This document shows positions 8,782-61,534 of a stretch of DNA of 64,000 bases, piece after piece. Both the position numbers and the translations under genes were made by a program. Source of the stretch: Aneurinibacillus thermoaerophilus (GTDB lineage: Bacteria; Bacillota; Bacilli; Aneurinibacillales; Aneurinibacillaceae); NCBI RefSeq assembly GCF_900099925.1, contig NZ_FNDE01000002.1, positions 124,001 to 188,000 on the forward strand, written 5' to 3'. The notes beneath the pieces were generated by a model. It searched no databases. It had not been told where the DNA came from and saw nothing but the letters and a program-made list of their open reading frames with translations. Every line of letters starts with the position of its first letter. Positions within the stretch are counted from its first letter, which is position 1.

Positions 8782-8896
8782 ACTCTTATCCAGAGAGGTG
8801 GAGGGACTGGCCCAGTGAAGCCTCGGCAACCATCAAAGAAACTCTTTGACACGGTGCCAATTCCAGCAGCGCTCGCGCGCTGAAAGATGAGAGGTC
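8782..8896 (+). promoter_or_regulatory. SAM-I (S-box) riboswitch aptamer
   Basis: A classic S-box. The P1 5' strand ACTCTTATC is followed by CAGAGAGGTGGAGGGACTGG and the core segment CCTCGGCAACC. A variable hairpin and a GGTGCCAATTCCAGC-type segment come next, and the 3' P1 strand is GATGAGAG. SAM binding stabilises P1 and frees the downstream terminator, switching the methionine transporter off. The sequence GAGAGGTCCGGC at the aptamer 3' end can pair with GCCGACCTCT at 8920-8930, giving the expected antiterminator. Confidence 0.95.
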
Positions 8897-52712: not shown

Positions 52713-52743
52713 GTACGTTACAGTAACGAATGGATTAAATGCC

Positions 52744-52845
52744 TACTACTTTCCTACGCTGGTACGAACCAGATCAGGTCCCAAGAGTTTAGAAACTTCA
52801 TCGCGTTTCATTCTCAGCCCGGCTCATCGGGCTCCCCTAGTAGTG
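52744..52845 (-). promoter_or_regulatory. TPP (THI-element) riboswitch aptamer
   Basis: On the minus strand P1 (ACTACT ... AGTAGT, 52745-52750 with 52839-52844) encloses the consensus: AGGGGAGCCCGATGAGCCGGG, then GGCTGAGAATGAAA, the variable arm, and GACCTGATCTGGTTCGTACC. It is followed by the terminator at 52678-52712 and the tenI operon. Confidence 0.96.
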
Positions 52846-52869
52846 CTTTCTATATAATATTTTTTTATC

Positions 52870-58068: not shown

Positions 58069-58875
58069 TTGCAGAATACGGAAAAAAAAGATTGGGGAAT
58101 GTTAGCCAGACGTTGTGCGTTAAGCGCGGGAAAGCTAATTGAGGAAATGCTGGTTCATCCGTTGGAAGTTATGTACAAGACGTCTTCTTCCGATTTAGTT
58201 ACGTCGGTGGATCGGGCGGTTGAACAAATGGTGATCGATGAAATCTTTAAAGTATATCCGGATCACGGAATTCTTGGAGAAGAGGGATTGGTCGCCTGCG
58301 AGCCGTCCAAATTCGAGACAGTATGGATGATTGATCCGATCGACGGGACGACCAATTTTGTTCACCAGCGGCAGAACTATTGTGTCTCGATTGCCGCATA
58401 TCATCGAGGCGTATGCGAAGTGGGCGTTGTGTATGACCCAACACGTCAGGAATTGTTTTACGCGGAGCGGGGTGGGGGCATTTTTTTGAACGATGCCCCT
58501 CTTCGAGTGAAGCGGAATAAAGAAATGAAAGAGGCGCTAATTTCGACAAGCCTTTTTTGGAATCGGCGGGCAATGAAGAATGGCCTTTCGGAAAAAGCGC
58601 AACGGCTCGCGCACAGGGCGCGTGGTGTCCGGATTTATGGTGTGGCAGCGCTAGAACTTGCGTACGTCGCGGCTGGACGGCTTGATGCCTATATCAGCCC
58701 CGGTCTGAATGCGTGGGATCTGGGTGCTGGAAGACTGCTGGTGGAAGAATCCGGCTGTAAAATTAGCACAATAGAAGGGAAAGAGCTTCCGTTTGCAGAG
58801 CGGACGAGTGTGCTTGCTGCCAACCCGAATATATATGACTTTTTGCTTGAATTCTTAACAGAACATACTGTATAA
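58069..58875 (+). CDS. Inositol monophosphatase family protein
   Basis: Mg-dependent sugar/inositol phosphatase of the IMPase/FBPase superfamily, about 268 residues. Metal motifs: ILGEEG (Glu), WMIDPIDGTTNFVH (Asp-Pro-Ile-Asp-Gly-Thr) and NAWDLGAGRLLVEESG. The substrate could be inositol phosphate, NADP or fructose bisphosphate. TTG 58069 has GTGAGGCGAG upstream; an ATG at 58039 is in frame but has a poor ribosome binding site. The que operon promoter overlaps its 3' end. Confidence 0.88.
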   Translation: MQNTEKKDWGMLARRCALSAGKLIEEMLVHPLEVMYKTSSSDLVTSVDRAVEQMVIDEIFKVYPDHGILGEEGLVACEPSKFETVWMIDPIDGTTNFVHQRQNYCVSIAAYHRGVCEVGVVYDPTRQELFYAERGGGIFLNDAPLRVKRNKEMKEALISTSLFWNRRAMKNGLSEKAQRLAHRARGVRIYGVAALELAYVAAGRLDAYISPGLNAWDLGAGRLLVEESGCKISTIEGKELPFAERTSVLAANPNIYDFLLEFLTEHTV

Positions 58876-58876
58876 T
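58847..58876 (+). promoter_or_regulatory. Promoter of the queuosine operon leader
   Basis: TTGAAT, 18-base spacer, consensus TATAAT at 58871-58876. It overlaps the end of the inositol-phosphatase-family gene and predicts a transcript start near 58884. Confidence 0.6.
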
Positions 58877-58914
58877 ATAATATTAAGTAAAGCATGATCT
58901 TTGATAATTGAATC

Positions 58915-58999
58915 ATACTCTACGCGTTAGCGTAGGTGAGAAAGGTTCATTATATCGTTGTTTGTGGCGAAACCAACGTTAAAAATACCACCGGAGTAT
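58915..58999 (+). promoter_or_regulatory. Unidentified riboswitch-like three-way junction before queD
   Basis: Closing stem ATACTC (58915-58920) with GAGTAT (58994-58999). Inside are a perfect hairpin CTACGC-GTTA-GCGTAG (58920-58935) and a second arm CGTTG/CAACG (58956-58960 with 58974-58978). A terminator follows 11 bases later and then the preQ1 pathway operon. I could not fit it to preQ1-I, preQ1-II or other aptamers I know. The layout is that of a ligand-controlled attenuator. Confidence 0.5.
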
Positions 59000-59009
59000 T
59001 GTCTGTTTC

Positions 59010-59036
59010 ATCCCCTGGTGAAGGGGATTTTTTTGT
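59010..59036 (+). terminator. First terminator in the que leader
   Basis: ATCCCCT-GGTGA-AGGGGAT followed by seven or more T. Directly downstream of the junction structure. Confidence 0.82.
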
Positions 59037-59059
59037 TTTTTGTATAAAACGGACAACGC

Positions 59060-59085
59060 AAGGGGCCGCCGCAGGTCCCTTTTTC
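59060..59085 (+). terminator. Second terminator-like hairpin in the que leader
   Basis: AAGGGGCC and GGTCCCTT arms (G-T pairs allowed) around a 5- to 6-base loop, followed by TTTTC. It lies 45 bases before the queD start. Confidence 0.6.
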
Positions 59086-59129
59086 TTTTCCGGATGGTGA
59101 GCTTTGAATGTTAGATGGGAGGGGAAAAC

Positions 59130-59609
59130 ATGTCCGAATTCCAGATTCCACGCAAGGTGCAGCGATTGCATGAAGACATTCGGCCGGAACAGCTGCGCTA
59201 CCACAGTCGGAGGGTTGCCGTAACGAAAGAGTTTACGTTTGATTCCGCGCACCATCTTCACTTATATGAAGGAAAATGCAAAAGCTTACATGGGCATACG
59301 TACAAACTGGTAATTACCATGAGCGGTTTTGTCAACGAAATAGGGATTTGTGTCGATTTCGGAGATATCAAGGAAGTGTATGAAGAAATAATTAAATCGC
59401 AGCTTGACCATAAATATTTAAATGAGGTGCTGCCGCCAATGAATACAACGGCAGAGAACATGGTTGTCTGGATATGGGAAGAACTGGATTGCGCTATTGA
59501 ACAGCGCGGCTGGAAACAGCGCGGAACGCGCCTAGAAGAGCTTGTGCTGTATGAGACACCGACAAGCTACGCGACGCTTAAGCGGGAATGGATGGAAAGC
59601 AATGCATAA
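59130..59609 (+). CDS. queD: 6-carboxy-5,6,7,8-tetrahydropterin synthase
   Basis: Converts 7,8-dihydroneopterin triphosphate to 6-carboxytetrahydropterin, the second step of preQ1 synthesis. ATG 59130 behind GGAGGGG gives 159 residues. The zinc/catalytic motifs are FDSAHHLHLYEGKCKSLHGH (Cys nucleophile and His ligands) and DFGDIKEV; the C-terminal active-site Glu is in LEELVLYETP. It overlaps queE by 8 bases. Confidence 0.95.
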   Translation: MSEFQIPRKVQRLHEDIRPEQLRYHSRRVAVTKEFTFDSAHHLHLYEGKCKSLHGHTYKLVITMSGFVNEIGICVDFGDIKEVYEEIIKSQLDHKYLNEVLPPMNTTAENMVVWIWEELDCAIEQRGWKQRGTRLEELVLYETPTSYATLKREWMESNA

Positions 59610-60330
59610 TTTGGCTTGGGAAGAGCTGCACACTGACCTGAAAGTGCCGATGGTTGAGCTGTTTGAAACGGTGGAAGGAGAAGGCAGGATGGCCGGTTAT
59701 CCGACCGTTTTCATCAGAATTTTTCACTGTAATCTACGCTGTACATGGTGTGATACTACGTATAGCTACGCGCCGGAGAAACCGGCTTTTACCGCTAGCA
59801 TTTGTGAGATTGTTGACCGGGTCTCCGCCTATGGACATGGCGTAGTTTGTCTGACTGGTGGCGAACCGTTGATGCACGGTGTAAAATCGCTTGCGCTTGT
59901 CTATCATCTAGCACGGATTCCACACGTTTGGGATATCCATATTGAGACGAATGGGGCGATTGATTTGCAGCCGTTTCAAGCGCTGCGCGAGCGCGAGAAA
60001 GAAGTGCGGGAGAAAGTACGTTTTGTCATGGACTACAAACTTCCAGCGAGCGGAGAGACGGAGCGCATGCATGTGCCCAATCTCGCGCTTCTGGAAGAAC
60101 GTGATGAAGTGAAGTTTGTTGTAGGGAATGAAGCAGATTTTATGTACGCTTTGGATGTGCTAAAACGACATCCGACGCGCGCTACCGCGCTTTTCAGTCC
60201 CGTATGGGAAACGATGCCGCCCGCGGATTTGGTTTCATTCTTGCTTAAATATAGGCCGCAGGAAGGGCGGGCGCGCTTGAATATGCAGATTCATAAAGTG
60301 ATCTGGGATCCGGAGGCGCGCGGAGTATGA
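59602..60330 (+). CDS. queE: 7-carboxy-7-deazaguanine synthase
   Basis: Radical SAM enzyme that rearranges carboxytetrahydropterin to 7-carboxy-7-deazaguanine. ATG 59602 gives 242 residues. The cluster motif FHCNLRCTWCDTTY has the CX3CX2C spacing. Other landmarks are ELFETVEGEGRMAGYPTVFI, VCLTGGEPL and HIETNGAI. It is coupled to queD by an 8-base overlap. Confidence 0.95.
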   Translation: MHNLAWEELHTDLKVPMVELFETVEGEGRMAGYPTVFIRIFHCNLRCTWCDTTYSYAPEKPAFTASICEIVDRVSAYGHGVVCLTGGEPLMHGVKSLALVYHLARIPHVWDIHIETNGAIDLQPFQALREREKEVREKVRFVMDYKLPASGETERMHVPNLALLEERDEVKFVVGNEADFMYALDVLKRHPTRATALFSPVWETMPPADLVSFLLKYRPQEGRARLNMQIHKVIWDPEARGV

Positions 60331-60401
60331 GGATCGTTCTGTGCGTATTTTCGCCTAGCTTATTTTTTGATCACTTCATGAGATAAAGGGGGAAAAAGAC
60401 G

Positions 60402-61088
60402 GTGAAGAAAGCAGTAGTTGTGCTGAGCGGTGGTCTGGACAGTACGACTTGCATGGGAATTGCCCGCGATGCGGGATATGAATTATATCCGTTGACGTTT
60501 CACTATGGCCAGCGCCACGATCGGGAAGTAGAGCAAGCGAAGAAAATTGCTGCCTTCTATCGTGTACCGCATCACCGAATTGTTACGCTTGATTTTTTGA
60601 AGCAGATCGGTGGCAGCGCGTTGACGGATGAAACGATCGCTGTGCCGGTAGGAGGTGTGAACGAAGCCGGGGAGAATGATATTCCGTCTACGTATGTGCC
60701 GGCGCGCAATCTGATTTTTCTCTCATTGGCTACCGCGTATGCGGAAGTGGTCGGAGCGGAAGTCGTTTATATCGGCGTTAGCGCTGTTGATTATAGCGGC
60801 TATCCCGACTGCCGGCCGGAATTTATTCGCGCGATGAATGAGACGATCGGTCTAGCGACTAAAGCGGGCATAGCCGGTGCAGGCATCCGGATTGAAGCAC
60901 CGCTTGTGCATTTATCCAAGAAAGAAACGATTGAATGGGGGCTGCGTCTTGGCGTTCCATACGAATTGAGCACCTCGTGCTATCAGGGAGGCGAGGAAGC
61001 ATGCGGCGAATGCGATAGCTGCCGTCTGCGCCTTAAAGGATTCGCTGATGCCGGAGCTAAAGATCCGATTCCGTATAAGAAACGATAA
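60402..61088 (+). CDS. queC: 7-cyano-7-deazaguanine synthase
   Basis: ATP-dependent ligase making preQ0 from carboxydeazaguanine and ammonia. 228 residues from GTG 60402 behind AAAGGGGGA. It has the PP-loop VVVLSGGLDSTT and the C-terminal zinc motif CGECDSC with the preceding Cys in STSCYQGGEEAC. Third gene of the operon. Confidence 0.96.
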   Translation: MKKAVVVLSGGLDSTTCMGIARDAGYELYPLTFHYGQRHDREVEQAKKIAAFYRVPHHRIVTLDFLKQIGGSALTDETIAVPVGGVNEAGENDIPSTYVPARNLIFLSLATAYAEVVGAEVVYIGVSAVDYSGYPDCRPEFIRAMNETIGLATKAGIAGAGIRIEAPLVHLSKKETIEWGLRLGVPYELSTSCYQGGEEACGECDSCRLRLKGFADAGAKDPIPYKKR

Positions 61089-61105
61089 GAAAGGATGAGT
61101 CAACA

Positions 61106-61534
61106 ATGGCACAAGTAGAGCACAATCACGCGAAATATAACAACATTCGATTTGACATTCAGGACGAGTCGGCGATCATGGTCGATATTCTTGAAACCAT
61201 TCCTTACGAATACGTCGGAAAAAAAACGGAAGTCACCATTCCGACAAGTGAGTTTACATCCGTATGTCCATGGTCCGGTTTGCCGGATTTCGCGGATATT
61301 AAGATTACATTTATTCCTAACGAAAAATTAATCGAGATGAAATCGTTGAAATACTATTTGACTTCTTACCGGAATGTGGGCATTTATCAGGAGCACGCTA
61401 CGAATAAAATTTTGGAAGACCTCGTCAAATTGGCAGATCCGCTGTATATGCGCGTGGAAGCGATCTGGAACGCCCGCGGTGGACTTGGAACGGAAGTTAT
61501 TGTAGAATACCGTAAGGAAGGATATGAAGGGTAG
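61106..61534 (+). CDS. queF: NADPH-dependent 7-cyano-7-deazaguanine reductase
   Basis: Reduces the nitrile of preQ0 to the amine preQ1, completing the queuosine precursor. This is the short, single-domain Bacillus-type QueF (142 residues). The thioimide-forming Cys is in FTSVCPWSGLPDFA, and the QueF motif ESKSLKYY-like segment appears as EMKSLKYYLTSYRN. AGAAAGGATG precedes the ATG. It ends the que operon. Confidence 0.96.
   Translation: MAQVEHNHAKYNNIRFDIQDESAIMVDILETIPYEYVGKKTEVTIPTSEFTSVCPWSGLPDFADIKITFIPNEKLIEMKSLKYYLTSYRNVGIYQEHATNKILEDLVKLADPLYMRVEAIWNARGGLGTEVIVEYRKEGYEG

Follow-up and report, generated by a model that had tools for sequence, protein, structure and literature searches.

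Class I preQ1 riboswitches have in common a P1 stem of 5–6 bp closed by a G-C pair, a U directly after P1, a specificity C before the 3' strand of P1 (P1'), an A-rich L3, and an A by which preQ1 is read; the letters before P1' are UC in type I and AC in types II and III, type III combining UU with AC (PMC11625349, PMC8752633, PMC10622847). Neither a preQ1 riboswitch of a fourth class nor one for preQ0 came up in the literature library searched. In the window, i.e. the whole 64,000-nt stretch of Aneurinibacillus thermoaerophilus DNA analysed here, the leader of the queDECF operon very probably holds a tiny conserved metabolite-sensing switch that, judged from its sequence, is built like class I with letters of its own. 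The features of the locus are:

58847–59130, plus strand: queDECF leader
58847–58876, plus strand: sigma-A-like promoter, TTGAAT-18-TATAAT, the same layout being readable in relatives
58914–58950, plus strand: inserted hairpin, IS200/IS605 (TnpB)-type right end, outside the switch (from congener identity and absence in relatives)
58956–59035, plus strand: conserved core, aptamer plus terminator
58956–58996, plus strand: candidate aptamer, 41 nt (BLAST; covariance model R1, 65.4 bits)
58956–58960, plus strand: 5' strand of P1, CGUUG, partner 58974–58978, invariant in 13 distinct members
58961–58963, plus strand: L1, UUU, first U invariant and equivalent to class I U6 (PMC11625349)
58964–58967, plus strand: 5' strand of P2, GUGG
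58973, plus strand: candidate specificity cytosine, with an A before it, invariant
58974–58978, plus strand: 3' strand of P1, CAACG
58979–58987, plus strand: A-rich linker L3 (UUAAAAAUA), its last A being the candidate preQ1 reader
58988–58991, plus strand: 3' strand of P2, CCAC
58989–58994, plus strand: CACCGG, candidate antiterminator strand, partner 59015–59020, complementary in 12/12 sequences
59010–59035, plus strand: intrinsic terminator, AUCCCC-UGGUGAA-GGGGAU plus U tract, with CUGGUG (59015–59020) invariant
59060–59086, plus strand: second terminator-like hairpin, stem 59060–59081
59130–59609, plus strand: queD, first gene of queDECF (59130–61534)
59599–60330, plus strand: queE-like gene, radical-SAM protein
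60402–61088, plus strand: queC
61106–61534, plus strand: queF, last gene of queDECF

A sequence-only reading of this locus had proposed a promoter and two successive terminator hairpins ahead of queDECF. The promoter was found, QueD, QueE-like, QueC and QueF coding was confirmed, and both hairpins (59010–59028 and 59060–59081) are intrinsic-terminator-like; they belong to 4 such sites observed in the region, where 0.5 would be expected. The 59060–59081 hairpin is present in the window and four congeners and absent from the other relatives. Folded as a single sequence, the leader is no more stable than its shuffles (z about -1.2). The same reading had seen no known preQ1 aptamer, and the Rfam scan agreed: at the gathering score no family matched the leader site, and at relaxed thresholds none of the preQ1 families (RF00522, RF01054, RF02680) appeared there.

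The leader was located by BLAST directly 5' of queD in every one of the 11 family genomes searched, its own included. What exceeds chance in the leader is this conservation: positions 58956–59040 aligned at 76–94% identity in 10/10 relatives (best E 1e-31), among them Aneurinibacillus aneurinilyticus, A. danicus, A. tyrosinisolvens and A. terranovensis, with alignments starting at about 58951–58956 and stopping at or before 59048. A covariance model, R1, built from nine family sequences, gave new matches only in two genomes of a sister family (G013, 39.9 bits; G012, 27.6 bits) and in two Tepidibacillaceae (58.1 and 52.1 bits), one of them Tepidibacillus decaturensis. The element lies 5' of queF in the former two, which keep the aptamer with a different terminator, and 5' of a Vut_1 transporter gene followed by queF in the latter two, which are exactly those of five Tepidibacillaceae genomes that have queF. 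It is thus found in 15 genomes from three families, 11 times at queD, twice at queF and twice at Vut_1-queF. In the sister family queF sits after an inositol-phosphatase-like gene, as queD does in the window, and this shared upstream neighbour suggests that the position beside the phosphatase gene is ancestral. Read by eye, the queF site of sister-family genome G014 has no element and that of G011 has an apparent broken remnant.

A covariance model loosened by artificial variation of the P1 letters (A4/R2, a search device whose variants are not natural sequences) detected no additional que-gene member in 398 class and 398 phylum genomes; those weak matches that were read were coding or unrelated. 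A DNA pattern run over GTDB genomes gave 23 stretches. The true members among them come from Aneurinibacillus, from a related MAG and from Tepidibacillus; the remainder have no P1 or look unrelated. Plasmid and phage BLAST found nothing.

Each element opens with CGUUG, followed by UU and some additional loop letters, then GUGG, a short loop whose last letter is A, a C, and CAACG; next come an A-rich linker with a final A, the CCAC strand and, in most members, C(G/A)G. The conserved aptamer measures 41–45 nt. The loop GUGG is complementary to the CCAC after the linker, giving a candidate H-type pseudoknot, and the terminator CUGGUG is complementary to CACC(G/A)G, whose 5' part overlaps the 3' strand of P2, in all 12 sequences with this platform, which come from two families. 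The layout of an attenuator is present (promoter, candidate sensor, candidate mutually exclusive pairings, intrinsic terminator and operon), but the energies do not favour the antiterminator: the partition function without ligand gives it at most 4% and the terminator 94% or more, so that switching must be kinetic, or else the platform has been misread.

The stems differ in how they vary. P1 (CGUUG/CAACG) is the same in every bacterial member of the three families while the loops vary, and consequently offers no covariation; such invariance is unusual for a simple stem. P2 is fully paired in 11/12 platform sequences, with one mismatch in G021 and no compensatory change among bacterial members, and reaches 6 bp (AUGUGG/CCACAU) in G012. 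For a single sequence, P2 complementarity would arise by chance with p about 0.2–0.3 in typical members and 0.04 in G012. Compensatory changes between families were found in the terminator stem.

Set against class I types I–III (RF00522; B. subtilis queCDEF, Tte, Can and Eco), the element has a candidate H-type layout of the same kind, a 5-bp P1, an A-rich L3 and a location before genes of queuosine biosynthesis or transport, and all class I pocket letters are present: the closing G-C, UU after P1 (as in types I/III), AC before P1' (as in types II/III) and A before P2. Its terminator platform resembles that of the B. subtilis class I riboswitch. In contrast, P2 is GUGG/CCAC, the tail CCAC replacing the CUA, CAAGG or AAGG tails of types I–III, and P1, unlike that of class I, is invariant. 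Since the Rfam model and all three tail consensuses fail, the element was not filed under RF00522. With preQ1-II (RF01054) and preQ1-III (RF02680) it would share the ligand pathway and pseudoknotting, whereas the folds differ and neither model matches. It most probably works like a class I preQ1 riboswitch.

RNAs closer to the canonical design occur in the same lineages, in two sets that score below the RF00522 gathering score of 39 bits:

L044, L119, L120, L122 and L123, positions 1501–1545: preQ1-I-like RNA before a YhhQ-like Vut_1 gene, overlapping the likely ribosome-binding site
L124, L125 and L126, positions about 1501–1550: diverged preQ1-I-like RNA with a longer loop and CUAGGGAG tail, below the Rfam gathering score

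The first set (27–37 bits) comes from the window's own genome and four congeners, just 5' of the YhhQ-like Vut_1 transporter gene, and the second (22–24 bits) from sister-family genomes G014, G011 and G013, 5' of queDEC. G013 has both designs: its queDEC is preceded by the preQ1-I-like RNA, its queF by the new element. Like the element, these RNAs stand before queuosine genes, within a single genome or in sister ones; unlike it, they are scored by RF00522 (22–37 bits), carry an ACUA(A/G)G tail and lie at the YhhQ-like transporter gene or at queDEC. These sequences indicate that preQ1 control is usual in these lineages and set the new element apart from the canonical RNAs.

We consider it probable that the element, which escapes existing models, is a preQ1 riboswitch that terminates transcription, with a class-I-like H-type pseudoknot. 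At low preQ1, CACCGG just 3' of the A-rich linker would pair with CUGGUG of the terminator and hinder it, so that queDECF would be read. At high preQ1, the ligand would pair with C58973, be read by U58961 and A58987, and stack on the closing G-C of P1, stabilising P2 (GUGG/CCAC); formation of P2 would take CCAC from the antiterminator, the terminator would form and the operon would be off. The overall logic would be feedback repression of queDECF by preQ1. Observed in this scheme are the RNA's conservation, the que genes beside it, the complementary strands and the terminator; the pseudoknot, its ligand, and both the direction and the kinetics of switching are proposed.

Several findings support this reading: i) the core is conserved at queD in all 11 family genomes, ii) R1 finds it at queF or Vut_1-queF in other families, iii) the pocket letters agree with class I, and iv) the same lineages carry canonical-like preQ1-I RNAs at further que genes. 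Also in its favour are the terminator CUGGUG, which would normally be free to vary and is both invariant and complementary in 12/12 sequences, and the 6-bp P2 of G012. The preQ1 reading is weakened in that P1 never varies, P2 shows the G021 mismatch and lacks compensatory change, P2 complementarity is common by chance in typical members, and the energies would leave control to kinetics. If it is correct, the family of very small preQ1-reading RNA switches gains one more sequence type, and two preQ1 sensor designs share one pathway within single lineages, the canonical-like one at the transporter or queDEC and the new one at operons containing queF. Such operons look unregulated in annotation because RF00522 does not report the element.

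An unlikely alternative is that the element represents a separate riboswitch class, or responds to a different ligand from the same pathway, for instance preQ0, through a similar small pseudoknot. Several features would suit a separate class: the unmatched Rfam preQ1 models, a P2 and tail unlike those of types I–III, the invariant P1, and the coexistence with a canonical-like preQ1-I RNA in G013. Wherever queF was located, no element was seen that lacks it as a near gene, and preQ0 is the substrate of QueF; an off-switch on queF governed by the enzyme's own substrate would, however, be odd, and a separate class would have to account for the presence of all class I pocket letters. A wider proposal, that the element is either a separate preQ1-pathway class or a fourth class I type with its own ligand preference (preQ1/preQ0), and may reach bacterial viruses, is put forward only tentatively. 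Pattern scans brought up three viral contigs with look-alike H-type pseudoknots:

L137:4405–4440, minus strand: viral look-alike, P2 pairs differ
L143:635–672, minus strand: viral look-alike, P1 CUUG/CAAG
L236:2918–2955, plus strand: viral look-alike, P2 pairs differ

Their P2 pairs are AGGGG/CCCCU, UUGGGG/CCCCAA and GUGAAG/CUUCAC, and 31/33 positions are identical between L137 and L143. None adjoins que genes; the genes that follow are unrelated or unknown. As two of the three also surfaced through patterns holding P2 letters, they were not used as covariation evidence. A P2 of at least 5 bp was seen in 3/92 viral pattern matches against 0.18 expected by shuffling, a soft statistic that serves only as a lead, since the patterns themselves selected the matches.

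A protein-binding attenuator, in which termination depends on a regulatory protein that recognises the CGUUG hairpin, seems improbable. A P1 sequence invariant in three families is more usual where a protein binds than in a plain stem, and P2 is statistically weak, both of which would favour such an attenuator; the class I pocket letters and A-rich linker would then be coincidence, and we know of no candidate regulator at these operons. Still less credence can be given to ordinary terminators alone, with a terminator of the upstream gene and a leader that does not regulate: this would fit the dominance of the terminator without ligand, but the promoter separates the element from the upstream gene, placing the terminators inside the queDECF transcript, and different families keep the 41-nt core 5' of que genes. 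Finally, the closed, preQ1-III-like three-way junction drawn in the sequence-only reading can hardly be the true fold and was rejected: the complementarity 58915–58920/58994–58999 exists on paper, but this closing stem appears in neither of two predicted folds, RF02680 does not match, and the 5' strand together with the hairpin 58920–58935 (half of the proposed fold) falls in inserted, transposon-derived sequence that relatives lack. The other part of that reading, a ligand-sensing attenuator of preQ1 synthesis outside the Rfam models, is well supported by its conservation, its gene context in three families and its anatomy, with preQ1 as the probable ligand.

The insertion accounts for about 57 extra nt between TATAAT and the element in the window, four congeners having about 22 nt there in total. 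Positions 58918–58950 matched two loci of a congener at 94% identity by BLAST, and one of these loci lies just 3' of a TnpB gene (Pfam OrfB_IS605, Cas12f1-like_TNB). Hairpins of this IS200/IS605 type were found at L013, L024, L018 and L030 besides 58914–58950, which is inserted 3' of the que promoter and 5' of the aptamer; those at L018 and L030, elsewhere in the window's own genome, are similar and have AGGTTCAT at the end. The window also contains two ordinary riboswitches identified by Rfam, a SAM riboswitch at 8783–8893 on the plus strand (98.8 bits) and a TPP riboswitch at 52734–52848 on the minus strand (75.5 bits).
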